Part shown: one piece after another, positions 5,581-55,047 of the stretch | Layout: each line of letters opens with the position of its first letter | Position numbering within the stretch: the stretch's first letter is position 1 | From: Sphingobium arseniciresistens | GTDB lineage: Bacteria > Pseudomonadota > Alphaproteobacteria > Sphingomonadales > Sphingomonadaceae | Assembly: GCA_029167225.1 (NCBI GenBank) | Contig: JARFNK010000011.1 | Location: 62,001-126,000, forward strand | Direction: 5' to 3' | DNA: 64,000 nucleotides | Notes under the pieces: generated by a model | What the model saw: only the letters and a program-made list of their open reading frames with translations | Database searches by the model: none | Told to the model about the DNA's origin: nothing | Position numbers and translations under genes: made by a program

Positions 5581-5594
5581 CGGGATATTACGGA
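5581..5594 (-). promoter_or_regulatory. Candidate FixJ-type box upstream of usp-mgtA operon
   Basis: Read toward the gene: TCCGTAATATCCCG. It matches the window-wide pattern TNCGTANNNTCCCC and lies 56-69 bp before the usp start at 5525, the same spacing as the other members. A second, weaker repeat follows ten bases on (CGCATATAGA). Confidence 0.5.
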
Positions 5595-5647
5595 GGCCGA
5601 TCATACAACCCCGCCGGTGATTTAACTTTTCGAAACAGATGTTTGGG

Positions 5648-6544
5648 CTATTCTTTGGGCCGATAGCGGACGATCAGAAGATCGCCTTCGAGCGTTTCCA
5701 CAAGTGTCTTCGCCGTGCTTCCGATCAGCGCGTCGAACAAGGCTCCGCGGCCATGGCTGCCGATGACGGTCAGATCGACATGCTGGTCCTCAACATAGTC
5801 GCTCAGCAACCGCTCAGGGCTGCCGTGCGCGATCACGATGTCGGTCCTGTCCCTGAGGCGGTCGTCGACGCGCTCATCGGCCAGAAACTTGTTGCCGAGC
5901 TCCTTCTCCATGACGCCGAGGTCGCGCTTGAAATCCTGCTCGTCGAGATATCCGGAGAAGGGAACGTCATAGCCGTGGAACAGCGTCAGCGCGGCTGACG
6001 GAAAACAAGCCGCCGTCGTGAGCAGCGCCTGTAGCGAGGCCTCCGAGAAGTCTGTGCCGACGACAATGTCGCGATAGTGCCGGACCGCGCGATCATGGAC
6101 GACCAGGACAGGCACCGGCGATCCGCGCACCAGCCGGTTGACGGTGTTGCCGAGGAACATGCGACCGAGCGTTTCGTCGCGGGCAATGCCGGTCACGATG
6201 AGGTCGCAGCCCTCGCGCAATGCCATTGAAAGGAGCAGTTCGGCAGGCTCGCCTTCCTCGACAAGGATTCGGATGGTGTCGGCCGACTTCCCCAAGTCGC
6301 GCCTGAGGCGCCATTTCATCCGGTCGATGGGGCTTGGCAGCCGCCTCCAGGACGCCGGCGTGCGATCGAAGCGGAACTGCCGTGTCTCCGAGGGATCGAT
6401 GACATAGGCCGCGATCAGCTCTGCATCCCGCTCCTGCGCCAGTTGCACGGCGCGGTCGAGCGCCCGGTCGCAGCGGCAACTCATATCCGTAGCAAGGAGA
6501 ATTTTCCGGGGGCTGTTCGGGATGGTCATGAGAGATCCATTCAT
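5648..6544 (-). CDS. Universal stress protein, tandem UspA domains
   Basis: 298 aa with two complete Usp domains. Domain 1 (about 12-150) has VTGIARDETLGRMFLGNTV, domain 2 (about 160-296) has IGSHGRGALFDALIGSTAK; both carry the G-X2-G-X9-G-(S/T) ATP-binding pattern, unlike most USPs in the window, which show it clearly only in the second domain. It lies 15 bp after the P2-type ATPase and is presumably cotranscribed with it. The ATG at 6544 has a poor ribosome site; an in-frame ATG at 6529 (MTIPNS) is an alternative start. Function of the individual protein is not known. Confidence 0.88.
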   Translation of the reverse strand: MNGSLMTIPNSPRKILLATDMSCRCDRALDRAVQLAQERDAELIAAYVIDPSETRQFRFDRTPASWRRLPSPIDRMKWRLRRDLGKSADTIRILVEEGEPAELLLSMALREGCDLIVTGIARDETLGRMFLGNTVNRLVRGSPVPVLVVHDRAVRHYRDIVVGTDFSEASLQALLTTAACFPSAALTLFHGYDVPFSGYLDEQDFKRDLGVMEKELGNKFLADERVDDRLRDRTDIVIAHGSPERLLSDYVEDQHVDLTVIGSHGRGALFDALIGSTAKTLVETLEGDLLIVRYRPKE

Positions 6545-6559
6545 CGTTGGGGAGGGGGG

Positions 6560-9241
6560 TCAGTTGAGCTCCTCGAACCAGCCGAGGCGGCGCATCAGCA
6601 GCTTTTCGCCTTCGAGGCAGAAGAACAGCGCAAGTCCTAGGACGATGATGAGCCCGCCGTCGCCCAAGGTGAGCGAGCGGCTTTCGAAGATCGCCTGCAT
6701 GAAGGGGGCGTAAGTGTAGAGAAGCTGCGCCAGCACCACGACGGCGATCGCACCAAGAACGGCGGGCGTTCCGATGGCGCCGCGCCAGGTCAGCGAACGC
6801 ATATGGAGGTAGCGCACGTTGAAGAGATAGAAGATCTCCGCGACGACCAGCATGTTCACGACCATGGTACGCGCTGTCTCAAGATCGCGGCCCTGTCCCA
6901 ACGTATGGAAGAAGACACCCAGCGCGAGGCCAGCCAGGAGGACTGAGACCAGCAGCACCCGCCAGAGCATGAACGGCGAGAGCAGAGGCGCGCTTGCCGG
7001 CCGCGGACGCCGCGCCATCGTTCCGGGCTCGTTCGGCTCGAACGCCAGCACCAGACCCAGCGTCACGGCCAGTACGAGATTGATCCAGAGGATCTGGGTC
7101 GCGGTCATCGGCAAGGTGAAACCGATCAGGATCGCCAGCACGACGGCTACGGTCTCGCCGCCATTGGTGGGCAAGGTCCAGGCGATCACCTTTCGGATAT
7201 TGTCGTAGACGGTGCGGCCCTCACGGACCGCGGCAACGATCGAGGCAAAATTATCATCGAGCAGCACCATCTCGGCCGCTTCCTTGGCGGCCTCGGTGCC
7301 CTTGTGGCCCATGGCGGTGCCGACATCGGCCTGCTTCAGCGACGGGGCGTCGTTGACGCCGTCGCCGGTCATCGCGACGATGAGGCCATGGGACTGCAAC
7401 GCACGGACGATCCGCAGCTTATGCTCGGGGCTGGTGCGTGCGAAGACATCGATCTCGAGCACGCGGGCAGCAAGAACGTCGTCGGAAAGGGCTTCGAGGT
7501 CTTTGCCCGTAAGGCCCCGCGGATACTCGCTGATCTGGAGCTGGCGGGCGATGGCAAGCGCCGTGCCGAGATGGTCGCCCGTGATCATCTTGACCGCGAT
7601 GCCGGCCGAACGGCATTCGGCGATCGCGGCTTTGGCCTCGTCGCGCGGCGGGTCGATGAACCCCATCAGTCCCAGAAACTCGACGCCGCCTTCGAGATCC
7701 TCGAAGGCGATGCGCGCCTTGCCCGCCTTTAGCCGCTTCATCGCGAAGCCGAGAAGTCGTTCGCCATGATCGGCCGCCCGTGCGATCCGCCGCTCCCATA
7801 ATCGCTGATCGACGCCGGCGATCGCCATCACCTCCTCCGGCGCACCCTTGAGGAAGATGACATGCTCGCCGGCCGGTCCCGAATGGAGCGTCGCCATGAA
7901 CCGGTAGGCGGCGTCGAACGGGATCTCGTCCAGCCGCTTCCATTCGGCACGCAGATGATCGGCGTTGAGGCCGGCCTTCATTGCCAGCGCGACGAGGGCG
8001 CCCTCCATGGGATCGCCGTCGACCTTCCACTGGCCGGCGTCACGCTTCAGCCGCGCGTCGTTGCAGAGCAGCCCGCAACGAAGGATCGCGCTTGCCGCAG
8101 CAATCGCATCGGCATCATCCTCGGCGCCTTCGCTGGTGAGACCTCCTTCGGGCGCGTAGCCTGATCCGCCAACGAGAATGGTATCCCGCTCGATGAGCAG
8201 ACGACGGACCATCATCTCGTTGCGTGTCAATGTGCCGGTCTTGTCAGAGCAGATGACCGAAGTGGCGCCCAGTGTCTCGACGGCGGGCAACCGCCGGATG
8301 ACCGCGTTGCGCGAAGCCATCCGTTGCACGCCGATCGCCAGCGTGATGGTGATGACGGCTGGCAGGCCTTCAGGGATGATGCCCACGGCAAGCGCGACCA
8401 CTGCGATCAGCGCGTCGATCCAGTGAAACTCACGCGCGACGACGGCGAACGCGAACAGCAGCACCGAGCCGGCCATCACCAGCCAGGTGAAGCGGCGCGC
8501 GAAGCGATTGATCTGCCGGAGCAGAGGCGTGGTGACGGTCTCGACGGCCTGCAGCAGACTGCTGATCCGGCCGATCTGCGTTTGTGTCCCGGTCGCTGCG
8601 ACAACGCCGCTGGCCTGGCCAGAGGCGACCAGCGTGCCGGAGAAAGCCATGCTGCGCTGGTCTGCAATGCCGGCCATATCCTCGACAGGTTCTTCCTGCT
8701 TTTCGACGGGCACGGATTCGCCGGTGAGCGGAGCTTCATCGATCAACAAGCCCCGCGCGCGAAGCAGACGCAGGTCGGCCGGGACCCTATCGCCTGCTTC
8801 GAGCATCACGATATCGCCGGGGACCAGATCGGGGACCGAGACCGTCCGGCGCCCGCCGTCGCGCAACACGGTCGCGTGCGGAGCGATCATGTCGCGGATG
8901 GCGCCCAGCGCTCGCTCTGCCTTGCCTTCCTGGGCAAAGCCGACGATCGCGTTGACCAGGACGACGACCGCGATGACGAATGCGTCGACCAGGTGACCGA
9001 GCAAAGCCGCGGCGAAGGCCGCCGCGAGCAGAAAATAGATGAGCGCGTTGTTGAACTGGGCCACAAATCGCAAGACAGGATGCGTGCCTGCCGTGCTGGG
9101 GAGCGCATTCGGCCCGTGCCGGACCAGTCGTTCGTCGGCCTCGCTCTGGCTGAGCCCGGCGATATCGGCATCCAGCCGGTCGAGCACGGAGTCGGCCGCC
9201 ATGGCGTGCCAGGCTTCAATCTTTTCCAGCTTCACCATCAT
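6560..9241 (-). CDS. P2-type cation-transporting ATPase (Ca2+/Na+-like)
   Basis: About 893 aa. Visible parts in order: N-terminal cation-ATPase domain, TM1-2, actuator with PLTGES at 171-176, TM4 with GIIPEGLPAV near 287-296 (the P2 ion-site signature), ICSDKTGTLT with the phosphorylated aspartate at 333, nucleotide domain with KGAPE, hinge GDGVNDAPS, and a C-terminal cation-ATPase domain. Closest in layout to bacterial SERCA/PMCA-like pumps that export Ca2+ or monovalent cations; which ion cannot be read from sequence alone. The start is set at ATG 9241 (MMVKLEKIEAW); an upstream extension to 9379 would be unconserved. A candidate FixJ-type box lies 50-63 bp upstream. Confidence 0.88.
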   Translation of the reverse strand: MMVKLEKIEAWHAMAADSVLDRLDADIAGLSQSEADERLVRHGPNALPSTAGTHPVLRFVAQFNNALIYFLLAAAFAAALLGHLVDAFVIAVVVLVNAIVGFAQEGKAERALGAIRDMIAPHATVLRDGGRRTVSVPDLVPGDIVMLEAGDRVPADLRLLRARGLLIDEAPLTGESVPVEKQEEPVEDMAGIADQRSMAFSGTLVASGQASGVVAATGTQTQIGRISSLLQAVETVTTPLLRQINRFARRFTWLVMAGSVLLFAFAVVAREFHWIDALIAVVALAVGIIPEGLPAVITITLAIGVQRMASRNAVIRRLPAVETLGATSVICSDKTGTLTRNEMMVRRLLIERDTILVGGSGYAPEGGLTSEGAEDDADAIAAASAILRCGLLCNDARLKRDAGQWKVDGDPMEGALVALAMKAGLNADHLRAEWKRLDEIPFDAAYRFMATLHSGPAGEHVIFLKGAPEEVMAIAGVDQRLWERRIARAADHGERLLGFAMKRLKAGKARIAFEDLEGGVEFLGLMGFIDPPRDEAKAAIAECRSAGIAVKMITGDHLGTALAIARQLQISEYPRGLTGKDLEALSDDVLAARVLEIDVFARTSPEHKLRIVRALQSHGLIVAMTGDGVNDAPSLKQADVGTAMGHKGTEAAKEAAEMVLLDDNFASIVAAVREGRTVYDNIRKVIAWTLPTNGGETVAVVLAILIGFTLPMTATQILWINLVLAVTLGLVLAFEPNEPGTMARRPRPASAPLLSPFMLWRVLLVSVLLAGLALGVFFHTLGQGRDLETARTMVVNMLVVAEIFYLFNVRYLHMRSLTWRGAIGTPAVLGAIAVVVLAQLLYTYAPFMQAIFESRSLTLGDGGLIIVLGLALFFCLEGEKLLMRRLGWFEELN

Positions 9242-9290: not shown

Positions 9291-9304
9291 CGGGAATATA
9301 CGGG
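9291..9304 (-). promoter_or_regulatory. Candidate FixJ-type box upstream of P2 ATPase-usp
   Basis: Gene-strand sequence CCCGTATATTCCCG, 50-63 bp before the ATG at 9241. A second copy, CGTATGATCCCG, precedes it and overlaps by two bases, giving a ten-base tandem period (about one helical turn), as at 5581. Confidence 0.5.
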
Positions 9305-9427
9305 ATCATACGAGGTTTTGATCGAGCCGAACCCAACAGGATTAGGTCCACGATCGCGCAAATATATATATCGGTGCAAATCATATAGAAACCAATATAG
9401 CGGCCCCAGGCGATGGCAGACAACTAC

Positions 9428-15869: not shown

Positions 15870-16673
15870 TCAGTGGCCGAGAATGAGCGGCAGCTTGCTG
15901 GTGCTCAGCATTCGGCGTGTCACGCCACCGAAGAGGGCTTCGACGAGCCGGTTGTGGCTAAAAGCGCCCATGAGGCAGTACCTTGCCTCCGATGCGGCGC
16001 ATTCCTCAGCGATTATATCGTCGGCATGCCGGTGCTTGCCGGCGACGCGCCTGATCGTGGCATGGATGTCGTGGCGTGAAAGATAGGCGGCCGCCTCTTC
16101 CGCGGGAACTCCTTCGCCTCCATCATCGATCGTCAAGAGCTGGATCGCCTCGGCGAGCTTGAGGAGGGGTACGCAGGCGCGCATCGTGGCCATCACCGGA
16201 TCCGAGCCGTCCCAAGCGATCAGTGCGCGGCCTGTGACGTCGAGGCTTCGGACATTGTCGGGCACAGCGACCACCGGTGTCCCGGAGCGGACGGCGATCG
16301 ATGCGGTGACGCCGCGCATGTCCGGCTCTGGAAAGACATCGAGCTTGCGATTGACGACGATGAGGTCGGCAAGTCCAGCCGCACGGGTAACGCATTCCGC
16401 GAGACCGCCGCTGCTCTCGATCCAGTCCCATGGCACGCCTTCATGGGCCAGCCTCGCCTCGAGCGTCACGCGATTGGCGGCTTCCCGCTCCCGCTCGTCG
16501 GCCATCAGCATTGCGGTTGCGGCGCCACCCGAATAATCGCCCGCGATCACCTGCACCTGCGCGACGTCGAGACAGGTCAGATGGCCTTCAAGCGCGCGGG
16601 TGATGTCGAGCGCGGTCTGGAACCGTGCCTCCTGTCCCGCGTCGTCGTGCACGAGGAGCAATATGTTCTTCAA
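15870..16673 (-). CDS. Universal stress protein, tandem UspA domains (TTG start)
   Basis: 267 aa from TTG at 16673, preceded by GGAGG six bases upstream; this start aligns exactly with MKNILLLVHDD of the paralogue at 4731-5525, whereas the longer open frame adds eight unconserved residues. Two Usp domains; the C-terminal loop is MGAFSHNRLVEALFGGVTR, where the usual GxxG glycine pattern is partly altered (AFSHN). Leads the usp-adhP pair. A candidate FixJ-type box lies 72-85 bp upstream. Confidence 0.87.
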   Translation of the reverse strand: MKNILLLVHDDAGQEARFQTALDITRALEGHLTCLDVAQVQVIAGDYSGGAATAMLMADEREREAANRVTLEARLAHEGVPWDWIESSGGLAECVTRAAGLADLIVVNRKLDVFPEPDMRGVTASIAVRSGTPVVAVPDNVRSLDVTGRALIAWDGSDPVMATMRACVPLLKLAEAIQLLTIDDGGEGVPAEEAAAYLSRHDIHATIRRVAGKHRHADDIIAEECAASEARYCLMGAFSHNRLVEALFGGVTRRMLSTSKLPLILGH

Positions 16674-16744
16674 TTCCCGCCTCCATCCACGCGGCACCTG
16701 CGTTTCATTGACATGACTATGCGCGTCTCTTTGACCCGATAATT

Positions 16745-16758
16745 AGTAAGTCTACGCA
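16745..16758 (-). promoter_or_regulatory. Candidate FixJ-type box upstream of usp-adhP
   Basis: Gene-strand TGCGTAGACTTACT, sharing TGCGTAGA with the box at 55034; the CCCC part is replaced. Lies 72-85 bp before the TTG start at 16673. Confidence 0.42.
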
Positions 16759-16793
16759 TCTTCAGGGCAGCAGAAGCCTGCGTTATGAGAGCG

Positions 16794-18207: not shown

Positions 18208-18225
18208 AGTATCCGCAATGATACT
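18208..18225. promoter_or_regulatory. Perfect inverted repeat in kinase/BON divergent promoter
   Basis: AGTATC-N6-GATACT, arms perfect, 25-42 bp before the kinase start at 18183. Looks like a dimeric regulator site; regulator unknown. Confidence 0.35.
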
Positions 18226-18303
18226 TAAAGCGGGCGGAGCCGGCGCATCGAACCGCGGCGCCGCGACGATTTGAGAGCGCCCTGCCTGATGTCCATTTCG
18301 AGA

Positions 18304-18319
18304 TCCGTAAACTTACGGA
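18304..18319. promoter_or_regulatory. Palindromic TCCGTAA element upstream of BON gene
   Basis: TCCGTAA, AC, TTACGGA: seven-base perfect arms. The left arm (TCCGTAAA) matches the candidate FixJ-type half at 27283. It is 160-175 bp before the BON start at 18479, farther than the other boxes. Confidence 0.35.
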
Positions 18320-21046: not shown

Positions 21047-21145
21047 CGGGTCATCTCCTGTAGCTGCCCGCGTTCGCGTGTTGCCGGGCCGGCATCTCCA
21101 ATGGATGCGCACGAAATCTACGGTGCCCGCCCACGACCAAATATT

Positions 21146-43119: not shown

Positions 43120-43866
43120 TCAGATCGCTTGCTGAATATCTGCCTCGGCCAGCGGCAACGAGTAGCCGTGCGCCTTGATGTGGCGGAATAGGGTGCGCGG
43201 CTCCTCAGAGCCGACGATGCGACCGTCGACCATCAGATGGCCGACATCGGCATGAATATAATCCAGAATGAAGCCGGTATGGGTGATCACAAGCGCTGTT
43301 CGTTGCGGATCGGCGGGTGTATCGGCCCCGAGCAACCTGTCGATGGCTTTGCCGACAGCCGCGATATGCTCGAGGTCCACCCCGCTCTCCGGTTCGTCGA
43401 AAAGGCACAGATCGGGACGTTTGAGGAAGAGCTTCAGGATTTCCCATCGTTTGATCTCGCCACCCGAGAAACCGACATTGACATCGCGTTCAGCAAAGCC
43501 GCCGAAATCGAGCGCCGAGGCTTCCGTTTCCAGGAGCGCGGTGGATCCGATCGCCGCCGTGAATGCCTCGACCGTGACGCCTTCCAGAGCCGGCGGCCGC
43601 TGGAACGACATGCCGAGGCCCATCTGTGCGCGCTGATCCACGGGCAGCGCATCGATACGCCGGCCTTTGAACCAGATCTCCCCGCTCGTCACCCGATAGG
43701 GCGCAAGACCCATGATCGTCGCGAGGAGCGACGATTTGCCCGATCCGTTCGGGCCGAACAGTACATGCGTTTCACCCGCCGGGATCGTGAGATTCACGCC
43801 GTGCAGGACAGGCAAGCCGTCCGCTGAAACGTTCAGATCCCGGATCTCCAGAAGGGTATCGGTCAA
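43120..43866 (-). CDS. sufC: SufC-type Fe-S assembly ATPase (TTG start)
   Basis: 248 aa from TTG 43866, eight bases after a strong AAAGGAG; the frame is open upstream to 44268 but without conservation. ABC ATPase: Walker A GPNGSGKSS (38-46), Q-loop FQRPPALEGV, signature FSGGE (133-137), Walker B LCLFDEPE (153-160), H-loop VITHTG. The FSGGEIKRWEILKL signature is diagnostic of SufC. Energises Fe-S cluster building on the SufB scaffold encoded just downstream. A TACGTA-core element lies 53-66 bp upstream. Confidence 0.9.
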   Translation of the reverse strand: MTDTLLEIRDLNVSADGLPVLHGVNLTIPAGETHVLFGPNGSGKSSLLATIMGLAPYRVTSGEIWFKGRRIDALPVDQRAQMGLGMSFQRPPALEGVTVEAFTAAIGSTALLETEASALDFGGFAERDVNVGFSGGEIKRWEILKLFLKRPDLCLFDEPESGVDLEHIAAVGKAIDRLLGADTPADPQRTALVITHTGFILDYIHADVGHLMVDGRIVGSEEPRTLFRHIKAHGYSLPLAEADIQQAI

Positions 43867-43918
43867 AGGGGGGACTCCTTTGACCTCAAGTTCCCACGTC
43901 GATGGCCCCCGGAATATC

Positions 43919-43932
43919 TGTAAGGATACGTA
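43919..43932 (-). promoter_or_regulatory. TACGTA element upstream of sufC
   Basis: Gene-strand TACGTATCCTTACA, 53-66 bp before the TTG of sufC. Keeps the palindromic TACGTA core but only part of the TCCCC side. The remaining ~430 bp to fixL (43933-44368) hold no supported gene; a second weak copy on the minus strand reads TGCGTATTCCCC near 44140. Confidence 0.38.
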
Positions 43933-44368
43933 GTTCGGAGTGGTGCAAACGATGCGCATTATAGGGCGCACGCAATAAGTTGGTTCGGGTCGGAATGAAC
44001 TACCCTGTGGACACGCGTCGCCGAAAATCATAGCGTGCCCTGGCCTTTCCCGATCTTGATCGTGAGGAAAAGGTCGCAATTGGCGCGTTGAACATAGGCT
44101 CTCGGCTTCGGTCGGGCGGCCTGCGAAATGAAAGACCTTCGGGGAATACGCAGGGCGCGTTTTCCTATGTTTGCGCGCGATCAACCGTCCCGGCTGGCGG
44201 GGCGGCAGCGGGAGTGCGTCATGTCTCTGCCCTCTTCGAGGCGATCCGCGGGATGGATCGCCGCCCATTCAGAGCGCCACCATGCGGGGCGAGAGACTGT
44301 ATGCCTTTGCCGATCGGCTCCCGATACCAATTTATTGACCTGCCCGCCTGAAGGTTCGTGGTGAACTC

Positions 44369-46258
44369 ATGATGGCCGGTAGTGAAACACAGGTGGAACG
44401 CTCCCGGGTGGCGGCGTCGGTCATCACGGTAACCGCAGTCCTGATCGCAATCGTTGCTCGCTACACGCTCAAACCCTGGCTCGCCGCCGGCGAGCCCTAT
44501 TTCCTCTTCTGCGTGGCCGTTTTGGTCGCTGCTATCGCCGGCGGAGCGCGCCAAGCGCTGCTCGCCGCGATCCTGTCGATTGTCGCCGCAACGGTGCTCG
44601 AACTGGCCGAACCATCCGTCATGTTCGATCCGATCAGCGTTGTGACAGCCCTGGCGCTGACCGGCGGTATCATATTGTTCGCTGCAGGTAATGCGCCATG
44701 GCAACGACGGTCACGCCAGGAGAATGCGCGAGTCGCGGCGCGTCTGCGTGAAGGAGCGGCCGCCGCCGAAGAGCTGAACCTGCTGATCGACGGCGCGGAG
44801 GGTTATGCAATCTACATGCTGGATCCCGAGGGTCGGGTCACGATCTGGAACGAGGGCGCCGAGAGGCTGAAAGGCTGGACCGAGGCGGAGATCGTCGGAG
44901 AACATTGCTCGATTTTCTATCCCGTCGATGCAGTAGAGGCAGGCAAGCCAGGAGCAGATCTCGCGCGCGCGCGCGAACTGGGCAAATTCGAGGAAGAGGA
45001 TTGGCGGGTCCGTAAGGACGGTTCGGAGTTCCTGGGGCATGTCTCAATCACTGCGCTGCATAACGAGCAGGGAGCGCTTCGCGGGTTCGGCAAGGTCGTG
45101 CGCGACGCCACCCAGCAACGGGCAGCCGAAAGCGCGCTGCAGGCGAACGCCAGCCACCTGCGCTCGATCCTCGCGACCGTACCGGATGCGATGGTCGTGA
45201 TCGACGAGCAGGGTAGCATCATTTCGTTCAGCACTGCCGCCGAAAAGCTTTTTGGCTATGCGGAAGCCGAGGTTGTCGGGTCAAACGTCAGCCGGCTCAT
45301 GCCGTCGCCAGATAGGGAGCGCCATGACGGCTATCTCGAACGCTATCTTGTCAGCGGCGAACGCAGGATCATCGGCATTGGCCGCATGGTGCTGGCCTGT
45401 CGGCGTGACGGTTCGACCTTTCCCATGGAGCTCTCGGTGGGCGAGGCGATCAGCGACAAGCAGCGCGTCTTCACGGGCTTCATCCGCGACCTCTCCGAGC
45501 GACATGAGACGGAGGAACGTCTCGAGGAGTTGCAATCCAAACTCATACACGTCGCCCGCGTCAGCGCGATGGGCACGATGGCGTCGACCCTGGCACATGA
45601 ACTCAACCAGCCGATCACGGCGGTTGCCAACTATGTCGAGGCGGTGCGGGATTTGCTAGCAGAGGGCAACCCCGACGATCTGCCGATGATCACCGAGGCG
45701 CTGAATGACGCAGCTGGTGAAGCGATCCGTGCGGGACAGATCGTCCGTCGCCTGCGGGATTTTGTCGCACGCGGCGAGGTCGAGAAGACGGTTGAAAATC
45801 TGTCCGACCTGATCGCGGAGGCGGCGGCGCTCGGATTGATCGGTGCGAAGGAAAAGGGCGTTCAGTCCCATTTCGATTTCGATACCGGCGCGGTGCTGGT
45901 ACTGGTCGACAAGGTGCAGATACAACAGGTTCTGATCAACCTCGTGCGCAATGCAGTCGAGGCGATGGCAAGCTCGCGGGAGCGGCAGATCTGGGTCTAC
46001 ACACGGCAAGACGACAACGGGATGGTCCGCGTTACGGTGGCGGACACGGGCCCGGGTGTCGCGCAGCATGTCGCGGAGCAACTGTTCACCGCTTTCGTGA
46101 CGACCAAGAGCGAAGGGATGGGCCTGGGGCTTTCGATCTGCCGGACGATCGTCGAGGCAAATGGGGGACGGATTTTTCTTGAGCCGCGCAAAGGGGGCGG
46201 GTCGCAATTTCATTTCACGCTGGTTGGAGCGGACGCGGAGAAGATCAATGACGGATAG
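44369..46258 (+). CDS. fixL: FixL-type oxygen-sensing histidine kinase
   Basis: 629 aa. Four N-terminal transmembrane helices (about 15-110, DUF4118-like), PAS-1 (about 135-250), PAS-2 (about 262-380), HisKA with phospho-acceptor histidine 410 in STLAHELNQP, and HATPase with LINLVRNAVEAM, ADTGPGV and GMGLGLS. PAS-2 carries RHDGYLERY with histidine 319, the heme-ligating position of FixL, and RRIIGIGR with the FG-loop arginine, so heme-based O2 sensing is expected; PAS-1 lacks these. Reaction: autophosphorylation when oxygen is low and phosphotransfer to FixJ, whose gene overlaps by 11 bases. An ATG at 44372 is an equally possible start. Confidence 0.92.
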   Translation: MMAGSETQVERSRVAASVITVTAVLIAIVARYTLKPWLAAGEPYFLFCVAVLVAAIAGGARQALLAAILSIVAATVLELAEPSVMFDPISVVTALALTGGIILFAAGNAPWQRRSRQENARVAARLREGAAAAEELNLLIDGAEGYAIYMLDPEGRVTIWNEGAERLKGWTEAEIVGEHCSIFYPVDAVEAGKPGADLARARELGKFEEEDWRVRKDGSEFLGHVSITALHNEQGALRGFGKVVRDATQQRAAESALQANASHLRSILATVPDAMVVIDEQGSIISFSTAAEKLFGYAEAEVVGSNVSRLMPSPDRERHDGYLERYLVSGERRIIGIGRMVLACRRDGSTFPMELSVGEAISDKQRVFTGFIRDLSERHETEERLEELQSKLIHVARVSAMGTMASTLAHELNQPITAVANYVEAVRDLLAEGNPDDLPMITEALNDAAGEAIRAGQIVRRLRDFVARGEVEKTVENLSDLIAEAAALGLIGAKEKGVQSHFDFDTGAVLVLVDKVQIQQVLINLVRNAVEAMASSRERQIWVYTRQDDNGMVRVTVADTGPGVAQHVAEQLFTAFVTTKSEGMGLGLSICRTIVEANGGRIFLEPRKGGGSQFHFTLVGADAEKINDG

Positions 46259-46871
46259 ACGGATGATCCACATAGTCGATGACGAGGAGGCGATCCGGCG
46301 TTCGGCCGGGTTCATGCTCAAGACGTCGGGCTATTCGGTCGCCACCTATCCCTCCGGCGTCGCGTTCCTGCGGGAGGTGCGCCATGTCGAGCCAGGCTGC
46401 ATCCTCCTGGATGTCCGGATGCCGGACATGGACGGACTCGAGGTGCAGAAGGTTTTGAGTGATCGCGGCGTCGCGATGCCGATCATCATCCTCACGGGCC
46501 ATGGTGACATTTCCATCGCTGTCCGCGCCATGAAGGCTGGGGCGGTCGAATTTATCGAGAAGCCGTTCGAAAAGGCGACGCTGATCGAAGCAATCACCGC
46601 CGGTTTCGAGCGGCTTGACGGGTTGGGGAGGCGTTCCGAGCGCTCCGCTGAGGCGGCTGTGCTGATCGCCGGATTGACGAGCAGGGAGCAGGATGTGCTC
46701 AAGGGGCTTGCCGATGGGCTACCGAACAAGACGATCGCCTTCGACCTCGGCATATCGCCGCGAACAGTCGAGGTTCATCGGGCGAACCTCATGGCAAAGC
46801 TGAACGTAAGAAGCCTCTCCGATGCCCTGCGCATCGCCTTCGCGGTCAATCTTGGCGACAAGGACGCCTAG
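46248..46871 (+). CDS. fixJ: FixJ-type LuxR-family response regulator
   Basis: 207 aa from ATG 46248 (GGAGAAG upstream), overlapping fixL. Receiver domain (about 5-120) with DDEE acid pocket, phospho-acceptor aspartate 55 in LLDVRMPDMDG, and lysine in FIEKPF; LuxR helix-turn-helix at about 143-200 with LTSREQDVLKGLADGLPNKTIA and ISPRTVEVHRANLMAKL. The classical partner of FixL, activating low-oxygen promoters. Multiple candidate sites for such a regulator occur across this window. Confidence 0.93.
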   Translation: MTDRRMIHIVDDEEAIRRSAGFMLKTSGYSVATYPSGVAFLREVRHVEPGCILLDVRMPDMDGLEVQKVLSDRGVAMPIIILTGHGDISIAVRAMKAGAVEFIEKPFEKATLIEAITAGFERLDGLGRRSERSAEAAVLIAGLTSREQDVLKGLADGLPNKTIAFDLGISPRTVEVHRANLMAKLNVRSLSDALRIAFAVNLGDKDA

Positions 46872-46877
46872 GACCAC

Positions 46878-46891
46878 TACGTAAAGACGCA
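46878..46891 (+). promoter_or_regulatory. TACGTA element upstream of orphan receiver
   Basis: TACGTAAAGACGCA, 63-76 bp before ATG 46954; retains TACGTA, not the CCCC end. Spacing fits the other candidate FixJ sites. Confidence 0.38.
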
Positions 46892-46953
46892 CAGGGCACA
46901 TGTCCGTCATCTGACCGATCCGGCACCTTGCCAGCCGGTCTGTCAGGACTATC

Positions 46954-47352
46954 ATGAACGCACATCTTGCAATTCTCGATGCAGCCCGGCCTGTCATCAC
47001 GCTCGTCGACGACGATCCGGGTGTCCGCCGTTCGATCCAGCTCCTTCTTCGGGCAAAAGGCTATGACGTTCGATCCTATGCCTCGAGCAAGGCGTTGCTT
47101 GCCGATCCTCTCGCCTTAGGCGCCGCCTGCCTTGTCACCGACTATCTGATGCCGGAGATCGACGGCATTGGCGTCCTGCAGGCGTTGCGGAACAATGGCT
47201 GGAAGGGGCCGGCAGTGCTCGTTTCCGCCTATCATTCACCCCGTCTGGTCGAACAGGCGATGCGGGAGGGATTTGCCAGCGTCATCGGAAAGCCCCTGCG
47301 TGAGCATAGCCTGGCGGACACCGTTTCACGGCTTGTCGCGGAAAGCATATGA
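46954..47352 (+). CDS. Single-domain response regulator (orphan receiver)
   Basis: 132 aa, receiver domain only. Acid pocket LVDDDPG, phospho-acceptor aspartate 63 in VTDYLMPEIDG, switch serine in LVSAYH and lysine in VIGKPL. No output domain. AGGACTATC precedes the ATG. Directly follows fixJ after 82 bp with its own promoter-like element. Single receivers next to FixLJ often act as phosphate sinks or FixT-like antagonists; that role is inferred. Confidence 0.85.
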   Translation: MNAHLAILDAARPVITLVDDDPGVRRSIQLLLRAKGYDVRSYASSKALLADPLALGAACLVTDYLMPEIDGIGVLQALRNNGWKGPAVLVSAYHSPRLVEQAMREGFASVIGKPLREHSLADTVSRLVAESI

Positions 47353-49149: not shown

Positions 49150-49677
49150 TCAGGGCCCGGTCGGCGTCTCCAGATTGCGCGTCACGAGAACGAGGGTCGG
49201 ATCGCCGGGATATTCCTGAAGTGAAAAGCCTGAATCGCGCTCGACCTCGATCGCTGTGCGATTACCCCGGTTCTCGATCGACTCGATGACCTTGAGACCG
49301 CGCTCGGTCGCGCGCTCCGCCAGAAAGGCGAGGAAGGTCCATCCAATGCCTTGATTATGATGGCTGGCGTGAACGGAAATTGCGACCTCGCCACGCTCGC
49401 CCTGCGTATCGCAGGCGAGCATTCCGGTTGCCACCGCCGTGCCATCGGGCTGGAATGCGATGTAGCTGTCGATCGTGCTGTGATCGGCCTGCGTCATCGC
49501 CTTGATCTGATCGGCGCCGACTTCGTTCAGGCCAGTAAGGAACCGAAAGCGCAAATCCTCCGGACTCACATTGTGGAACAGCTCTACCAGGATCGCTGCA
49601 TCGTCCGGCTCTGCCTGTCTCACAAGGAGCGTGAGCCCGGTCCGGGTTTGCAACTTTGTGCTGACGTCGTCAGTCAT
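49150..49677 (-). CDS. GNAT-family acetyltransferase
   Basis: 175 aa from ATG 49677 (AAAGGATT upstream). GNAT fold with acetyl-CoA loop HHNQGIGWTFLAFL near 107-120. The opening VRQAEPDDAAILVELFHNVSPEDLRFRF resembles the C-terminal GNAT domain of Pat/YfiQ-type protein lysine acetyltransferases ('S-P-E-D-L-R-x-R-F'). If so, it could acetylate acetyl-CoA synthetase-like enzymes. Upstream lies a decayed SDR fragment, so the gene's original operon seems damaged and its present promoter is unclear. Confidence 0.78.
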   Translation of the reverse strand: MTDDVSTKLQTRTGLTLLVRQAEPDDAAILVELFHNVSPEDLRFRFLTGLNEVGADQIKAMTQADHSTIDSYIAFQPDGTAVATGMLACDTQGERGEVAISVHASHHNQGIGWTFLAFLAERATERGLKVIESIENRGNRTAIEVERDSGFSLQEYPGDPTLVLVTRNLETPTGP

Positions 49678-49705
49678 GGATAGAATCCTTTCACAGAATG
49701 GCCGG

Positions 49706-49792
49706 TCAGGCCAGCAGATGCTGGCCGCCGTCGACGGGAATGATGGTTCCGAGGATCCGCGTTGCCGCATCGCTGACCGGGAAAGCGAAGTT
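49706..49792 (-). pseudogene. C-terminal remnant of a short-chain dehydrogenase
   Basis: The minus strand encodes FNFAFPVSDAATRILGTII followed by PVDGGQHLLA and a TGA at 49708-49706, the typical SDR C-terminus (…SDAATRITGTVIPVDGGQ). No Rossmann fold precedes it: going upstream the reading frame runs into unrelated sequence and then the PhaC-like fragment. Only about 28 residues remain. Confidence 0.75.
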
Positions 49793-49925
49793 GAAGGGAG
49801 GTTGTGCGCAAGCCGAATCGGCGAAGCGTCGATCCTGAGGGAGGGGCTTCATGGCGGACCCAGCATCCCGCTAGCGCACGCTACGGACTATGTCATCAAG
49901 CAGGTTGCATATCTTCGGTCCGCGA

Positions 49926-50096
49926 TTACGGCGAGTTGCCGGGCGACAAAGCGATGTGGAGACTCCAATCGGCAAGCGCATCATCTGCCGCCGCAGAGGA
50001 AAGACCCGCTGTCAACTGGGCAGATGCTGCATGATCGAGAGTCTCCGCGATCCCATCCAGAGGATCGGGCACGTGCGTCAGGTCAACGGCGGCCAT
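49926..50096 (-). pseudogene. N-terminal remnant of a PHA synthase (PhaC-like)
   Basis: A 56-codon frame from ATG 50096 to TAA 49926, with AAGGAG upstream. It reads DPLDGIAETLDHAASAQLTA then GLSSAAADDALADWSLHIAL and SPGN, which matches the conserved N-terminus of class I poly(3-hydroxyalkanoate) synthases/PhaC-like hydrolases (GLSPAAL...DWxxHLAxSPG). The catalytic alpha/beta-hydrolase part is absent. A TACGTAG element lies 52-65 bp upstream, so the promoter end survives while the body was deleted. Confidence 0.65.
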
Positions 50097-50147
50097 GTCG
50101 AAATTCGCTCCTTAGGATTTGGTCTGGTTGTGCAGGCGCAGCAAGGA

Positions 50148-50161
50148 AATCGCACTACGTA
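50148..50161 (-). promoter_or_regulatory. TACGTAG element upstream of PhaC remnant
   Basis: Gene-strand TACGTAGTGCGATT, 52-65 bp before ATG 50096. On the plus strand the same core continues as TACGTAGATGTCC toward the small gene at 50279. Confidence 0.42.
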
Positions 50162-50278
50162 GATGTCCTCTCACAAGGAGTCCTTCGCGTATCCGGTGCC
50201 TTGGCCTTAGTAACTTCCCGGATATTGGCGCCGCGGACCCAGCACTAGCAACGTCGGCGAAACTGCCATCGGGAGGCT

Positions 50279-50476
50279 ATGATGAAGGATCGCACAAGTG
50301 CCGCTGTTGCTGGTCGGATTGAACAGAGTCGTATCCGGCTTCAGGTCGGCCTTGGTCTCTTCCTGAGCATTTTGCTCGTTCAAGGCGTCGTTTCGATGAC
50401 GCTCCCGGGCAAGCAGGCGACGGATAGCGCCAACTTGCGCGATCGCTCTCCCGTGGCCGAGTTGTGGGCCCGTTAA
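50279..50476 (+). CDS. Small single-span membrane protein
   Basis: 65 aa (or 64 from ATG 50282), preceded by GGGAGG. Charged N-terminus MMKDRTSAAVAGRIEQSRIR, one hydrophobic helix LQVGLGLFLSILLVQGVV (about 21-38), short polar tail. Such a start-proximal anchor fits a small membrane protein. No family recognised. It lies in the decayed patch, about 115 bp after a TACGTAG element, so expression is plausible but unproven. Confidence 0.5.
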   Translation: MMKDRTSAAVAGRIEQSRIRLQVGLGLFLSILLVQGVVSMTLPGKQATDSANLRDRSPVAELWAR

Positions 50477-50506: not shown

Positions 50507-50927
50507 TTGCCAAAACTGGTGCCCGCCGAGCCCGCCGCGGAGTTCATCGGCTCGTGCACGACCGTCGGCATGAGCGGCTTTACCGGGGTCCGGCTACCCC
50601 AGGCCGTGCCTCTGGCGCTGGCTGCCAAGATCGAGCCGGAGCGCGCCGCCAGCAACTCCTTCCGCCTGCGCGCGTGGACGGGTCCTTCCAGCGGTCCCGA
50701 ATTCGACGGGGCGTTGGCCAAGGTCGATGGGATCGAACTTTGCCTCCCCTACAACTCCGATCCGATTGGCTGGAACAAGATCAATGCGGGCAAGATGGAC
50801 TATCTCGATATGTACCAAGCCAAGTCGCCCCCATGGCGTGGCAGGGCCTCCTGGGGACCTCGATACAGCCGTCATCGAAACGTCGGCGATCCAGGAAGAT
50901 GGTTCGCCGATCCTGTCCTCGTGGTAG
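50507..50927 (+). pseudogene. Frameshifted remnant of an acetyl-CoA hydrolase/CoA-transferase
   Basis: The first ~105 codons ([60 protein letters not shown]) align with residues about 30-112 of the intact enzyme at 9428-10948. Homology then jumps to the second frame ([13 protein letters not shown]) and again to the third (GDLDTAVIETSAIQEDGSPI) before ending near 50927. Two frameshifts and loss of the catalytic second half (glutamate 294 region) show that this is a dead copy. Nothing supported lies between 50930 and 51079. Confidence 0.85.
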
Positions 50928-51079
50928 GAAGGACAATGCGTCATTATGATTGGTTCAGTTGACAGCAGGCATAAGAGCTTGGGATGTCGGGTGGTCTGCC
51001 AGACTGCATCTCTTACCTTGGGTGATCAGGGTTCCAACGCGAACCTGGCCCACCTCGTGGGGATCGAGAGGGACTGGCG

Positions 51080-51751
51080 TCAGCTTCCATCATATATCGC
51101 AGGGGGCGCTACGGCGCTATAACGCTCCACCGCAACGGTCGCGCACACCGATCGTGCTTTTTCCTGAACATCGAAAAGATGCCGGTCGGCGAAGCGCTCG
51201 GCCAGACCTTCGACAATGCTGCCGATATGAAGATAATGAGCGGATTTCATCGAGAAGGCCCGGAAAAGGTATCGGCTCGACAATTCACGCAGCGATTCCA
51301 TCTGGCCCTGCTCGCCCAGCCATGCGTCGCGGGCGCCCGATGTGGTGATCGAGACCATGTGACCGGCAGTCAGCGGTCCCTGTCCCGCGCGTTCCTGAAC
51401 CTGGTGGGGAGTGACGCCCGAACCGATGACACGGTCGACATAGCCTTTCATCATTGCCGGCGGCAGGCCGAACCATATCGGATAGATGAAGGCGACGACG
51501 TCACAGCCTTTGATGGCGTCGAGCTCGGCGCGCACGTCGGGTGTGATCTCGAAGCCATGTCTGTCGGGCCGCTCTTCGTTCCTGAGGATGGGGTTGAAGT
51601 TCATCGCGTAGAGATCTCGCAGGATTACCTCCTGCCCACATTCCTGCACCGCTTCGCAATAGGCTCGGGCTACCGCTGCGTTGAAGCTCGTCGGATCGGG
51701 ATGGGCGAGGACCACTACATGACGGCCATGGGTCTTTGTCGCTTCAGCCAT
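51080..51751 (-). CDS. NAD(P)H-dependent quinone oxidoreductase-like flavoprotein
   Basis: 223 aa flavodoxin-like fold (flavodoxin_2/NQO family). FMN/FAD loop VVLAHPDPTSFNAAVA near 12-27, second motif FIYPIWFGLPPAMMKGYVD, third motif TTSGARDAW. KefF/MdaB-type enzymes reduce quinones with NAD(P)H. AAGGAG stands seven bases before ATG 51751, and one of the best FixJ-type boxes lies 53-66 bp upstream. It has its own promoter, 137 bp after phosphoketolase. A paralogue is at 54323. Confidence 0.85.
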   Translation of the reverse strand: MAEATKTHGRHVVVLAHPDPTSFNAAVARAYCEAVQECGQEVILRDLYAMNFNPILRNEERPDRHGFEITPDVRAELDAIKGCDVVAFIYPIWFGLPPAMMKGYVDRVIGSGVTPHQVQERAGQGPLTAGHMVSITTSGARDAWLGEQGQMESLRELSSRYLFRAFSMKSAHYLHIGSIVEGLAERFADRHLFDVQEKARSVCATVAVERYSAVAPPAIYDGS

Positions 51752-51803
51752 CGAACGACTCCTTCCTCCAAGATGCTAGCCGACCGTGGAAAGGCTCGCC
51801 CTT

Positions 51804-51817
51804 GGGGAAACTACGCA
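51804..51817 (-). promoter_or_regulatory. Candidate FixJ-type box (best copy)
   Basis: Gene-strand TGCGTAGTTTCCCC, 53-66 bp before ATG 51751. Differs by one base from the box at 55034-55047 in front of the paralogous gene, although the flanking DNA differs. Confidence 0.6.
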
Positions 51818-51888
51818 ACGATAGATATTGCCGACCAGGCCGCCGTTCCCCGGGGGCGCATGCTCTCCGTTCATCTCGGGTGACAGCA

Positions 51889-54264
51889 TCAGTCGGACCA
51901 GACCCAGTCCTTGATGTCCGGGAGATCATCGAAATGCTCGCGGATATAGGCTTCATGCTCAATCAACAGCCGTCTGCAATGAAGGGCCAGTTCTTCATTT
52001 GCGGCGAACGAGTGCGGAACATAGCGCATCACATCGAGGCAAAGATGAAGGCGGCTCATCTCGTTGAGGACCACCATATCAAACGGCGTGGTGGTCGTGC
52101 CTTCCTCCATATAGCCGCGTACATGGAAGCGCTCATGGGCGGAACGGCCGTGCAGCAGATCGTGGATGACACCGGGATAGCCATGAAAGGCGAAAACCAC
52201 CGGCGCGCTGGCGGTGAAAATCTCGACAAACTCCGCGTCGCTCATGCCATGCGGATGGCGATCGGCCGGACACAGCCGCATCAGGTCGACGACATTGACG
52301 ACGCGAACCTTCAGTTCGGGTGTGAACCGGCGCAAGAGCCACGCGGCTGCGACGGTCTCCTGTGTCGGTACGTCGCCGGCGCAGGCGAGCACGATGTCGG
52401 GTGCTTCCGGCTGGGAGCTATACATCGGCCAGACGCCTGCACCGCGCGCGCAATGGGCCTCGGCTTCGTCCATCGTCAGCCACTGCAACTGCGGCTGCTT
52501 ATCGATGACGATCAGGTTGAGATAATTTCGGCTGCGAAAGCAATGATCGGCAACCGACAGCAGGCAGTTAGCATCGGGCGGCAGATAGACGCGCGCCACC
52601 ACCGGCTTGCGGTGAATGATCGTGTCGATGAAGCCCGGCCCCTGATGGCTGAAGCCATTATGGTCGTTGCGCCAGCACGTCGAGGTGAGCAGATAGTTGA
52701 GCGACGGTATGTCGGCCCGCCACGGCACGCGGCGGGCATGTTCGATCCATTTGGCGTGCTGCATCGCCATGGAATCGACGATCATCGCGAAGGCTTCGTA
52801 GGTGGCGAACAGACCGTGGCGGCCGGTCAACGTATAGCCTTCGAGCCAGCCATGGCAGCAATGCTCGCTCAGCACCTCCATGACGCGCCCATCGTGCGAG
52901 ACGTGATCGTCGCCGGGCTCGATCGCGCTGACGAGGCACCGATCGGAGGCGTCGAACACGGCGCCGAGCCGGTTCGAGTTGGTCTCGTCGGGGCAGAAGA
53001 GCCGGAAATTGTCGGGATTCGCCCGGTAGATGTCGCGCAGATAGGCACCGAAGATTGCGGTGGATCCCATCCGCTCGCGGGCGCGCTCCTCGAACCGCAC
53101 CTGAAAGGCCGTGTGATCGGGCAGGGTCAACGGTTTCGTCAGAAGCCCGCCATTTGCCTGCGGATTGGAGCCCATGCGGCGCTTCCCGGCAGGGGCGAGG
53201 GCAGCGATATCGGGCTGAAGACGTCCGTCGGCATCGAACAGCTCCTCCGGCCGATAGCTGTGCAGCCATTCCTCCAGGATCTGAAGATGCTCCGGATTGG
53301 TCCGTACCACGGACACCGGCACTTGATGCGCCCGGAACGTGCCCTCGATCTTGACGCCGTCGACGACCTTGGGCCCTGTCCAGCCCTTGGGCGTGCGCAG
53401 GACGATGAGCGGCCAGGCCGGCCGTTCGCTAAGGCCATTCGACCGGGCGTCCTCCTGGATCTCGCGGATTCGCAGCACGGCTGCTTCCAACACAAGCGCG
53501 AACTGGCGATGGACGGTCATGGGATCGTCGCCCTCGACGAAAGCGACCGCGTAGCCCTGGCCTTCGAAGAATTTGCTGAGATCGGCGTCCGTATGTCGGG
53601 CCCAGACCGTCGGCCCGGAAATCTTGTAGCCGTTGAGATGCAGGATCGGCAGCACAGCGCCGTCGCGCACCGGGTTGATGAAGTCGATGCTCTTCCAGCT
53701 TCCGGCAAGCGGACCGGTTTCGGATTCCCCGTCGCCGACGACGGCCGTCACCAGCAGATCGGGATTGTCCATGACGGCACCGAAGGCGTGGAGCAGGACG
53801 TAGCCGAGCTCGCCGCCCTCGTGGATCGACCCCGGCGTCGGCACGCTGACATGGCTCGGCACGCCCCCTGGCGTCGAGAATTGCCGGAAGAGTCGCAGCA
53901 TGCCCGCTTCATCCCGCGTTACATCCGGATAGAAATCCGTGTAGCTGCCCTCGAGCCAGACATTGGCGATGAGGGCCGGCCCTCCATGGCCCGGTCCCGC
54001 CATGTAGATGGTGTCGAGATCATATTTTGAGATCAGCCGGTTCATATGGGCGTAGATAAGATTGAGGCCGGGTGAGGTGCCCCAATGGCCGAGCAGGCGC
54101 GGCTTGATATGCTCGACCAGCAGCGGCTCGCGCACAAGCGGATTTGCCGACAGATAGATCTGGCCGATGTTGAGATAGTTCGCGGCGCGCCACCAGGCGT
54201 CGATGAGGCGCAGCTCCTCTGGATCAAGCTGCGCGAGAAGCGCGAAGGGGGCGTCGCTCATCAT
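51889..54264 (-). CDS. xfp: Phosphoketolase
   Basis: 791 aa from ATG 54264; the open frame to 54468 runs into the preceding oxidoreductase and is not used. TPP enzyme: GHWGTSPGLN near 59-68, GPGHGGPA near 90-97, TPP motif GDGESETGPL near 177-186, and HNGFSHQGPGF in the pyrimidine-domain region. Cleaves xylulose-5-P or fructose-6-P with phosphate to acetyl-phosphate plus glyceraldehyde-3-P or erythrose-4-P. Second gene after a flavodoxin-fold oxidoreductase. No acetate kinase or phosphotransacetylase is in the window, so how acetyl-phosphate is used is open. Confidence 0.93.
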   Translation of the reverse strand: MMSDAPFALLAQLDPEELRLIDAWWRAANYLNIGQIYLSANPLVREPLLVEHIKPRLLGHWGTSPGLNLIYAHMNRLISKYDLDTIYMAGPGHGGPALIANVWLEGSYTDFYPDVTRDEAGMLRLFRQFSTPGGVPSHVSVPTPGSIHEGGELGYVLLHAFGAVMDNPDLLVTAVVGDGESETGPLAGSWKSIDFINPVRDGAVLPILHLNGYKISGPTVWARHTDADLSKFFEGQGYAVAFVEGDDPMTVHRQFALVLEAAVLRIREIQEDARSNGLSERPAWPLIVLRTPKGWTGPKVVDGVKIEGTFRAHQVPVSVVRTNPEHLQILEEWLHSYRPEELFDADGRLQPDIAALAPAGKRRMGSNPQANGGLLTKPLTLPDHTAFQVRFEERARERMGSTAIFGAYLRDIYRANPDNFRLFCPDETNSNRLGAVFDASDRCLVSAIEPGDDHVSHDGRVMEVLSEHCCHGWLEGYTLTGRHGLFATYEAFAMIVDSMAMQHAKWIEHARRVPWRADIPSLNYLLTSTCWRNDHNGFSHQGPGFIDTIIHRKPVVARVYLPPDANCLLSVADHCFRSRNYLNLIVIDKQPQLQWLTMDEAEAHCARGAGVWPMYSSQPEAPDIVLACAGDVPTQETVAAAWLLRRFTPELKVRVVNVVDLMRLCPADRHPHGMSDAEFVEIFTASAPVVFAFHGYPGVIHDLLHGRSAHERFHVRGYMEEGTTTTPFDMVVLNEMSRLHLCLDVMRYVPHSFAANEELALHCRRLLIEHEAYIREHFDDLPDIKDWVWSD

Positions 54265-54322
54265 GTTATCCGATTCTGATAGAGGCGTGCGGCTGGTCCG
54301 GCGTGGCCTGTAGCCCTGACCG

Positions 54323-54982
54323 TCAATCTGTGACCGCGGTCTTGCTCGTCCGGTCTGCCGAAACCGCAACGCAGATGCGGCGTGCCCGACGATCGACGTC
54401 CGCCAGAAGCTGGTCCACGAAAAGTTGGTCGAGCCCTTCTGTCGTCTCGCCGAACTGCAGATCCTCATAGTCCCGAAAGCCGAAGGCGTGCAGCAGATAC
54501 TCGCCCAGGATCGACCGGAGCGACTGAATCTGATGTTCCTGGTTCAGCCATGCGTTGCTGTTTCCAGAGCTGCTGATCGTGACGAGACGCTTTCCGCGCA
54601 TGACCGTGTCGGCGTTGCGCTCCTGGACGTCCCGCGCGGTCACGCCTGCGCCCAGCACCCGCTGGATATAGCCTACCATCATCGCAGGCGGCATGCCGAA
54701 CCAGATCGGATAAACAGCAACGAAAACGTCGCTGCTGCGGATTGCGTCGAGCTCGGCGATCACGTCATGAGAAAGAGCGAACCCTTCCTTGCCGGGCCGC
54801 TCGGAGGCTTTCAGCGCAGGATCGAAGCCGAGGGCATAAAGGTCGCGAACGATGGCCTCTTGCCCACATGACCGCACCGCCTCGCAATAGGCGTCAGCGA
54901 CGAGCCCGTTAAACCCTCCGGGTTCGGGATGAGCGAGGATAACGACATGCCTCGGGCAATACATAGTGTGCTGATGTGACAT
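54323..54982 (-). CDS. NAD(P)H-dependent quinone oxidoreductase-like flavoprotein
   Basis: 219 aa from ATG 54982 (GGGAG upstream); the frame to 55234 is non-conserved, and ATG 54964 is a second choice. Flavodoxin_2 fold with VVILAHPEPGGFNGLVADAY, VYPIWFGMPPAMMVGYIQRV and SSSGNSNAWLNQEHQ. About half identical by eye to the protein at 51080. Leads a two-gene unit with xfp (58-bp gap). A FixJ-type box lies 52-65 bp upstream. Could recycle NAD(P)H via quinones when terminal oxidase activity falls. Confidence 0.86.
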   Translation of the reverse strand: MSHQHTMYCPRHVVILAHPEPGGFNGLVADAYCEAVRSCGQEAIVRDLYALGFDPALKASERPGKEGFALSHDVIAELDAIRSSDVFVAVYPIWFGMPPAMMVGYIQRVLGAGVTARDVQERNADTVMRGKRLVTISSSGNSNAWLNQEHQIQSLRSILGEYLLHAFGFRDYEDLQFGETTEGLDQLFVDQLLADVDRRARRICVAVSADRTSKTAVTD

Positions 54983-55033
54983 TCCGGGCTCCCTCGGGCT
55001 GCACGCTACTGAGCCGGCCCGGCGGCCGCCTTT

Positions 55034-55047
55034 GGGGAATCTACGCA
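55034..55047 (-). promoter_or_regulatory. Candidate FixJ-type box upstream of oxidoreductase-xfp
   Basis: Gene-strand TGCGTAGATTCCCC, 52-65 bp before ATG 54982; one of the two strongest copies in the window. Confidence 0.6.

Follow-up and report, generated by a model that had tools for sequence, protein, structure and literature searches.

Does a short promoter box, repeated before many genes of a 64,000-nt stretch of sphingomonad DNA (the window), tie much of this stretch into one regulon and, if so, which regulator would read it? A sequence-only reading had proposed precisely this, had likened the TACGTAG core of the box to FixJ sites and had pointed out that FixJ itself is encoded here. 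Our analysis deals with the regulatory genes, the box and its spacing to promoters, the candidate regulators, and the genes and loci that carry the box.

The FixLJ genes and their neighbours

Three regulatory genes lie side by side:

44369-46258, + strand: FixL-type haem-PAS sensor histidine kinase (Pfam PAS, HisKA, HATPase_c)
46161-46871, + strand: FixJ response regulator (Response_reg and GerE), likely start 46248
46954-47352, + strand: single-domain receiver (Response_reg) adjoining fixLJ

The best solved relatives of the kinase are FixL haem domains (E 1.4e-44) and the alignment conserves both the His of RHD(G/S)Y and the Arg of IGIGR, the proximal and distal haem residues, respectively. 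With haem-PAS His, Arg and kinase domains all present, 44369-46258 is predicted to be a FixL oxygen sensor. That FixJ is encoded here is borne out by its Response_reg and GerE domains, by the match to the solved FixJ structure 5xso (E 3.2e-47) and by a recognition helix (ISPRTVEVHRANLM) one residue apart from that of S. meliloti (ISPRTVEVHRANVM). As in the FixLJ-FixK-FixT system of Caulobacter, FixLJ is accompanied by a single-domain receiver that, judged from its box, would be under FixLJ control. FixT inhibits FixL autophosphorylation, and the receiver 46954-47352 is a possible feedback partner of FixLJ; unlike Caulobacter FixT, its sequence has one Cys only and so lacks a 4-Cys Fe-S motif of the Caulobacter type. 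Among the 40 ORFs scanned with Pfam, genes around fixLJ code for usp, P-type ATPase, flavodoxin-fold, phosphoketolase, PEP-synthase-type, SufC/D-like and BON proteins, and no member of the CRP/FNR family was found among these window proteins. The closest named FixJ loci belong to Sphingobium, most likely the genus of the window too, and in two relatives of that genus (G016 and G008) FixJ has the coordinates that it has in Sphingobium plasmid records.

The box, its density and its promoters

The promoter box forms part of aTACGTAnnnTCCCGnAT, an imperfect palindrome of 18 bp. An unseeded k-mer count over 876 non-redundant upstream regions from FixJ-bearing loci, the window among them, returned TACGTA as the most over-represented 6-mer (87 observed, 10.4 expected), and expectation maximization on 853 regions gave aTACGTAnatTCCCGnAT, an imperfect inverted repeat of 18 bp present in about 28-29% of them. 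The box was recovered from three of five starts; seeds with TTGATC or TTGACA led to low-information motifs and no box. For scoring, a matrix was trained on 612 upstream regions of loci L075-L150 only, and training regions with at least three 14-mers in common with the window were removed.

Above 13 bits, this matrix finds 14 matches in the 8,226 nt of intergenic window DNA and none in its 55,774 coding nt, a tally that treats an 85-codon ORF around one of the 14 (38066-38083) as spurious. The rest of the sampled genome (about 1.57 Mb of 6.6 Mb, window not counted) holds eight matches in 216,518 intergenic and eight in 1,095,346 coding nt, which makes the box 46-fold denser in the window than in sampled intergenic DNA (Fisher p 1.9e-15). 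On the same contig (C12), the sampled part outside the window has seven matches in 27,316 intergenic nt, and across 80 FixJ loci we count 201 matches in 248,495 intergenic against 19 in 1,259,620 coding nt (identical 22-mers taken once, related loci kept in).

Could the box simply be an AT-rich string common between genes? The literal string TNCGTANNNTCCCC would seem to say so, as a whole-genome scan returned five matches, two of them in the window, against five for the reversed control; this lack of enrichment is explained by the pattern, which is too short and takes no account of the second half-site. Moreover, four of the eight background matches fall within one 20-kb piece (L195, G000:C1:40001-60000), and for three of these four no start is predicted in the next 450 bp downstream; the L195 matches are probably false positives. 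Against chance, 500 column-permuted matrices run on the window's intergenic DNA average 0.25 and never exceed three matches where the real matrix has 14, and the box is 46 times sparser in intergenic DNA sampled elsewhere. Together with the conservation and -10 spacing described below, this refutes chance for the site set as a whole and leaves base composition with next to no probability as an explanation. The cores are as follows:

5578-5595, - strand: box core before usp 4731-5525 (21.7 bits; TAGCCT at the -10 position), a gene with P-type ATPase, LPG_synthase_TM and usp genes close downstream
9298-9315, - strand: weak box core before P-type ATPase 6560-9241 (11.8 bits; no -10 at the expected place)
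16742-16759, - strand: box core before usp 15870-16673 (14.3 bits; TAGTCA at the -10 position)
18211-18228, - strand: box core before HATPase-domain gene 17416-18159 (18.1 bits)
18303-18320, + strand: box core before BON-domain gene, predicted start 18479 (17.2 bits)
21143-21160, - strand: box core before usp 20216-21046 (15.9 bits; TAGATT at the -10 position)
21210-21227, + strand: second, near-symmetrical box core in the divergent region shared with 21143-21160 (18.3 bits on +, 13.1 on -; TAGGAG on the + side)
26299-26316, - strand: box core before 83-aa ORF 25991-26242 (17.1 bits; TAATCT at the -10 position)
27282-27299, + strand: box core 151 bp before usp 27451-28464 (21.6 bits)
38066-38083, + strand: core resembling the box, its role doubtful, at 179 bp from gene 36959-37885 (16.5 bits)
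38523-38540, - strand: box core before PPDK/PEP-synthase gene 38574-41027, pointing away (15.1 bits)
43916-43933, - strand: box core before SufC-like ATPase gene 43120-43866 (14.4 bits)
46877-46894, + strand: weak box core before receiver gene 46954-47352 (10.6 bits)
50206-50223, + strand: box core before 65-aa ORF 50279-50476 (17.8 bits; TAGCAA at the -10 position)
51801-51818, - strand: box core before flavodoxin-fold gene 51080-51751 (16.7 bits; TAGCAT at the -10 position)
55031-55048, - strand: box core before flavodoxin-fold gene 54323-54982 (18.9 bits; TAGCGT at the -10 position), a gene with phosphoketolase 51889-54264 close downstream

All six sequences quoted in the sequence-only reading are found at their coordinates on the - strand, and eight of its 11 sites exceed 13 bits; those at 9291 (11.8 bits, with a 5-bp shift of register) and 46878 are weaker and the one at 50148 is poor (7.4 bits). 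Six cores above 13 bits had gone unnoticed (18211-18228, 21143-21160, 21210-21227, 38066-38083, 38523-38540, 50206-50223), and single weak sites (9298, 38066, 50148) may be due to chance. A distance of 50-85 bp to the start, claimed for nine near sites, is roughly right only, because seven end 47-59 bp upstream, 46878 ends 62 bp upstream of start 46954 and 50148, about 117 bp from the closest plausible start (50279), falls outside. These distances rest on the start codons we chose: site 16745 is 47 bp from a GTG at 16697 and 71 bp from the start preferred by the gene finder (16673). That all boxes face their gene does not hold as a rule, since facing and opposed cases among single-direction promoters number 5 and 1 in the window, 44 and 50 in the 80 FixJ loci, 17 and 12 in the islands of relatives and 4 and 7 in other stretches of the same genome. 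Thus, the box occurs in either orientation. The window ends in an ATP-synthase gene cluster (58077-63991; gamma and alpha/beta subunits by Pfam), in which no predicted box exceeds 13 bits.

When 248 promoters (129 forward, 119 reverse) are aligned on the core, no position outside the box is conserved as strongly as A41, with A in 83% of the forward and 61% of the reverse set; forward promoters additionally favour T40 (53%) and T45 (43%). This -10-like element of forward promoters starts 22 bp past the core, at offset 40, where the complete TAnnnT occurs in 32 of 129 forward and 4 of 119 reverse promoters (6 at offset 39), where other downstream offsets average about 0.6; the complete form is hence a minority among forward and rare among reverse promoters. 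Within the window, 8 of the 18 site and orientation combinations printed have TA at offset 40, and in five of these eight TAnnnT is complete. With the last T set at -7, the core would cover about -52 to -35.

Which regulator reads the box

In vitro selection has yielded two FixJ site classes, GTAGTTTCCC and GTAMGTAG, and the same paper gives TAAGTAATTTCCCTTA for S. meliloti and describes an 18-bp imperfect palindrome as the FixJ site of Rhizobiales and Caulobacterales (PMC4999443); fixK of R. palustris carries GTACGTAG (PMC13327599). The first class recurs exactly at 51804 and with one mismatch at 55034, and the TACGTA cores of the window resemble the second, so the earlier impression of a FixJ-like core was well founded: the motif fits both published classes (PMC4999443). 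The published S. meliloti 16-mer is too rare for direct scanning. Run on S. meliloti DNA, the sphingomonad matrix ranks a matching site first in L191 (18.6 kb; 15.8 bits) and second in L193 (12.6 kb; 14.9 bits), where the site has two mismatches to the published 16-mer and the top-ranking match falls within a predicted gene. From its position and the gene order, the gene downstream of the site is probably fixK; it has a helix-turn-helix annotation in L191 and none in L193. In contrast to window sites with TA at offset 40, the S. meliloti site has none there. With TAAG placed near -64 in S. meliloti (PMC4999443), that site would lie about one helical turn further out.

On these grounds the proposal of one regulon read by FixJ gains support: the box is 46-fold denser here, recurs upstream of homologues and fits published as well as S. 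meliloti FixJ sites. Most simply, and most likely, the box is a binding site for the FixJ encoded in the window (46161-46871), which would directly activate its targets at low oxygen. Low oxygen would lead the haem-PAS kinase FixL to phosphorylate FixJ, and FixJ~P would bind the 18-bp imperfect inverted repeat in place of a -35 element, centred near -43, so as to activate a promoter whose -10 starts 22 bp past the core. Low-oxygen survival genes switched on directly in this manner would comprise usp, flavodoxin-fold/phosphoketolase, PEP-synthase, SufC-like, BON and HATPase-domain genes, and kinase-like genes would count among the direct FixLJ targets; P-type ATPase genes may belong to the regulon less surely. 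The receiver adjoining fixLJ would be co-regulated and may damp the signal.

An altogether different regulator travelling with fixLJ might read the box instead. Our 80 loci were picked by FixJ, which makes co-occurrence there partly a matter of design, and a co-inherited regulator would look alike; also, some genomes without a FixJ match exceed their control (G067, 25 against 9). Speaking against such a regulator, FixJ sites in print and the S. meliloti site show this very motif, and FNR/FixK boxes (TTGATNNNNATCAA) are not clearly enriched, so to our minds it is a quite improbable reader. We had considered FNR/FixK boxes at the same promoters and rejected them: allowing up to one mismatch, their density per 10 kb (window 0.31, n=2; islands 0.22) is like that of a random sample (0.18), and the window has no exact copy and two with one mismatch.

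How closely does the box follow FixJ? Among 119 genomes of the family, the ratio of hits to control is 2.06 with a strong FixJ (n=37), 2.29 with a weak one (n=46) and 1.34 with none (n=36). Strong differs from none at p 0.02 and from the rest at p 0.04, with the weak group scoring highest, and presence or absence of FixJ thus explains whole-genome box counts weakly. Clustering near FixJ genes (at least 50% identity) is stronger than this trend: of 142 pattern matches in six few-contig relatives, 46 lie within 50 kb of such a gene, where 9.0 are expected; for 20 kb the figures are 29 and 3.9. In 12 of the 80 FixJ loci, no box scores higher than 12 bits. Covariation with the recognition helix, at first sight decisive, does not amount to proof. 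Boxes per 10 kb of intergenic DNA amount to 16.0 in 42 loci with ISPRTVEVHRANLM and 0.4 in six with CSSRTVEVHRASLM, five of which have much DNA in common and thus offer few independent contexts. Of the eight RAS-type small genus loci (L010, L011, L012, L014, L025-L027 and the distant L018), two besides L018 have matches just above 11 bits (near-copies counted once), and HRAS loci are still enriched in TACGTA (8 against 1.5) and in ACGTAG. Owing to the shared DNA, the leftover matches and this enrichment, we count helix covariation as weak support.

Although FixJ is our preferred reader, it may not be the copy encoded here. The genome (G000) has six FixJ homologues at E 1e-20, on contigs C12, C62, C23, C26 (two) and C66, with recognition helices of the HRAN, HRAS, HRGK and HRGN types. 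The paralogues on C62 and C26 (C26a) keep the HRAN helix and have the box nearby (seven intergenic matches above 13 bits in 12,739 nt); near those on C23, C26 (C26b) and C66, 7,940 intergenic nt hold no match above 13 bits. Sites served mainly or jointly by the C62 and C26 paralogues, so that the window's FixJ is not their main reader, may therefore be envisaged. We regard this as rather unlikely, the box being densest around the window's own fixLJ (17.0 against 5.5 per 10 kb of intergenic DNA near the two paralogues), and it departs from the main explanation only in which FixJ copy acts.

Conservation, target genes and a plasmid relative

With homologues defined by blastp at 35% identity or more and boxes called above 11 bits, boxed window genes have the box at 76 of 109 homologues and unboxed ones at 101 of 303, the latter figure being high because the loci are box-rich. 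Conservation is found for usp 4731-5525 (25 of 28 homologues), usp 15870-16673 (21/24), the receiver gene 46954-47352 (37/59), the HATPase-domain gene 17416-18159 (3/3), the BON-domain gene starting at 18479 (6/12), usp 20216-21046 (3/4, in the upstream region), usp 27451-28464 (3/3, at 151-156 bp) and the SufC-like ATPase gene 43120-43866 (3/4). PPDK/PEP-synthase gene 38574-41027 has a single homologue, which is boxed; that of gene 36959-37885, also single, has no box. Least conserved are the sites of P-type ATPase 6560-9241 (4/9) and the flavodoxin-fold genes 51080-51751 (2/9) and 54323-54982 (2/7).

Taking the loci together, a box precedes 324 of 1,938 genes, most commonly in the families of usp (47 of 62), receiver (41/164), FixL (16/89) and zinc alcohol dehydrogenase (13/44), and further in Hsp20 (11/21), PhaC (9/14) and cytochrome bd subunit I (6/6) as well as CRP/FNR, the class of a classical FixJ target, with 12 of 18 homologues boxed in FixJ loci.

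FixJ is best known as a switch for fixK and nifA. The window resembles the rhizobial FixLJ-fixK/nifA systems (S. meliloti, Bradyrhizobium) in its haem-PAS FixL residues, a near-identical FixJ recognition helix, the 18-bp imperfect palindrome and, in sister loci, CRP/FNR-type targets, but differs from them in that many survival genes are boxed here and the window scan found no CRP/FNR family member. In the available part of one account, the Rhizobiales targets of FixJ number just four (nifA, fixK, fixX and SMc03253), conserved sites in Caulobacter are given only upstream of fixK and the FixLJ section names orthologues only in Caulobacterales and Rhizobiales (PMC4999443); Caulobacter FixJ acts directly and via fixK (PMC7078487). 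Compared with such small published regulons, a whole low-oxygen survival block under direct FixJ control, as the boxes suggest, would be large. A literature search turned up no article on a FixJ regulon in sphingomonads; as subscription journals were thinly covered, this does not establish absence in print. The lxa locus of Burkholderia cenocepacia, with six usp genes, and the DosR regulon of Mycobacterium tuberculosis, with ten, are likewise low-oxygen gene blocks rich in usp (PMC6127331). DosR/DevR is likewise a NarL/FixJ-type regulator, and DevR is among the PDB matches of the window's FixJ. For lxa, control by FixK under FixLJ has been suggested (PMC6127331), whereas here a FixJ-type box sits at the usp genes themselves.

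In Sphingopyxis granuli TFA, expression of usp genes increases 3-4 fold in the absence of oxygen (PMC6472365) and many anaerobically regulated genes are unaffected in a double fnr mutant, with induced stress genes being put down by the authors to nitrite and nitric oxide (PMC7713065). Some of this anaerobic response might be due to FixJ.

Over positions 27000-51900 the window is syntenic with plasmid pLA4 (L192) of Novosphingobium pentaromativorans US6-1 (85% aligned, 91.3% identity), which is typed as conjugative. Boxes on pLA4 precede the counterparts of the 83-aa ORF (2086; 17.7 bits), usp, PEP synthase (13064), SufC-like (17754) and receiver genes, the last at 20715 with 16.3 bits against 10.6 in the window. 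Sphingobium hydrophobicum carries FixLJ copies on two plasmids, and horizontal transfer has been suggested (PMC6783567). Tentatively, and as a possibility we would not yet favour over its opposite, sphingomonad FixLJ may be a self-contained, plasmid-transferable hypoxia-survival module, in which FixJ directly runs tens of genes via a -35-replacing box that serves divergent promoters, in several partly separate, paralogue-run copies per cell. If true, a large direct FixJ regulon (usp and flavodoxin/phosphoketolase, plus PhaC, Hsp20 and cytochrome bd in sister loci) would show how an oxygen sensor was rewired to serve the survival of aerobic sphingomonads, and a FixJ module would be shown to occur on conjugative plasmids. 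The exact site and its -10 spacing are now defined and directly testable.

Some minor features accompany this comparison. On pLA4, fabI lies between a GNAT gene and a divergent box pair. In the counterpart region of the window (49150-50250) the GNAT gene has no box, though 16 of its 20 homologues do, and a short ORF at 49706-49852 looks by eye like a C-terminal FabI remnant; another at 50507-50962 looks, again by eye, like an acetyl-CoA hydrolase fragment. Following the boxed usp 27451-28464 is an ORF of 2817 aa (28468-36921), whose pLA4 counterpart is annotated as a glucoamylase family protein.
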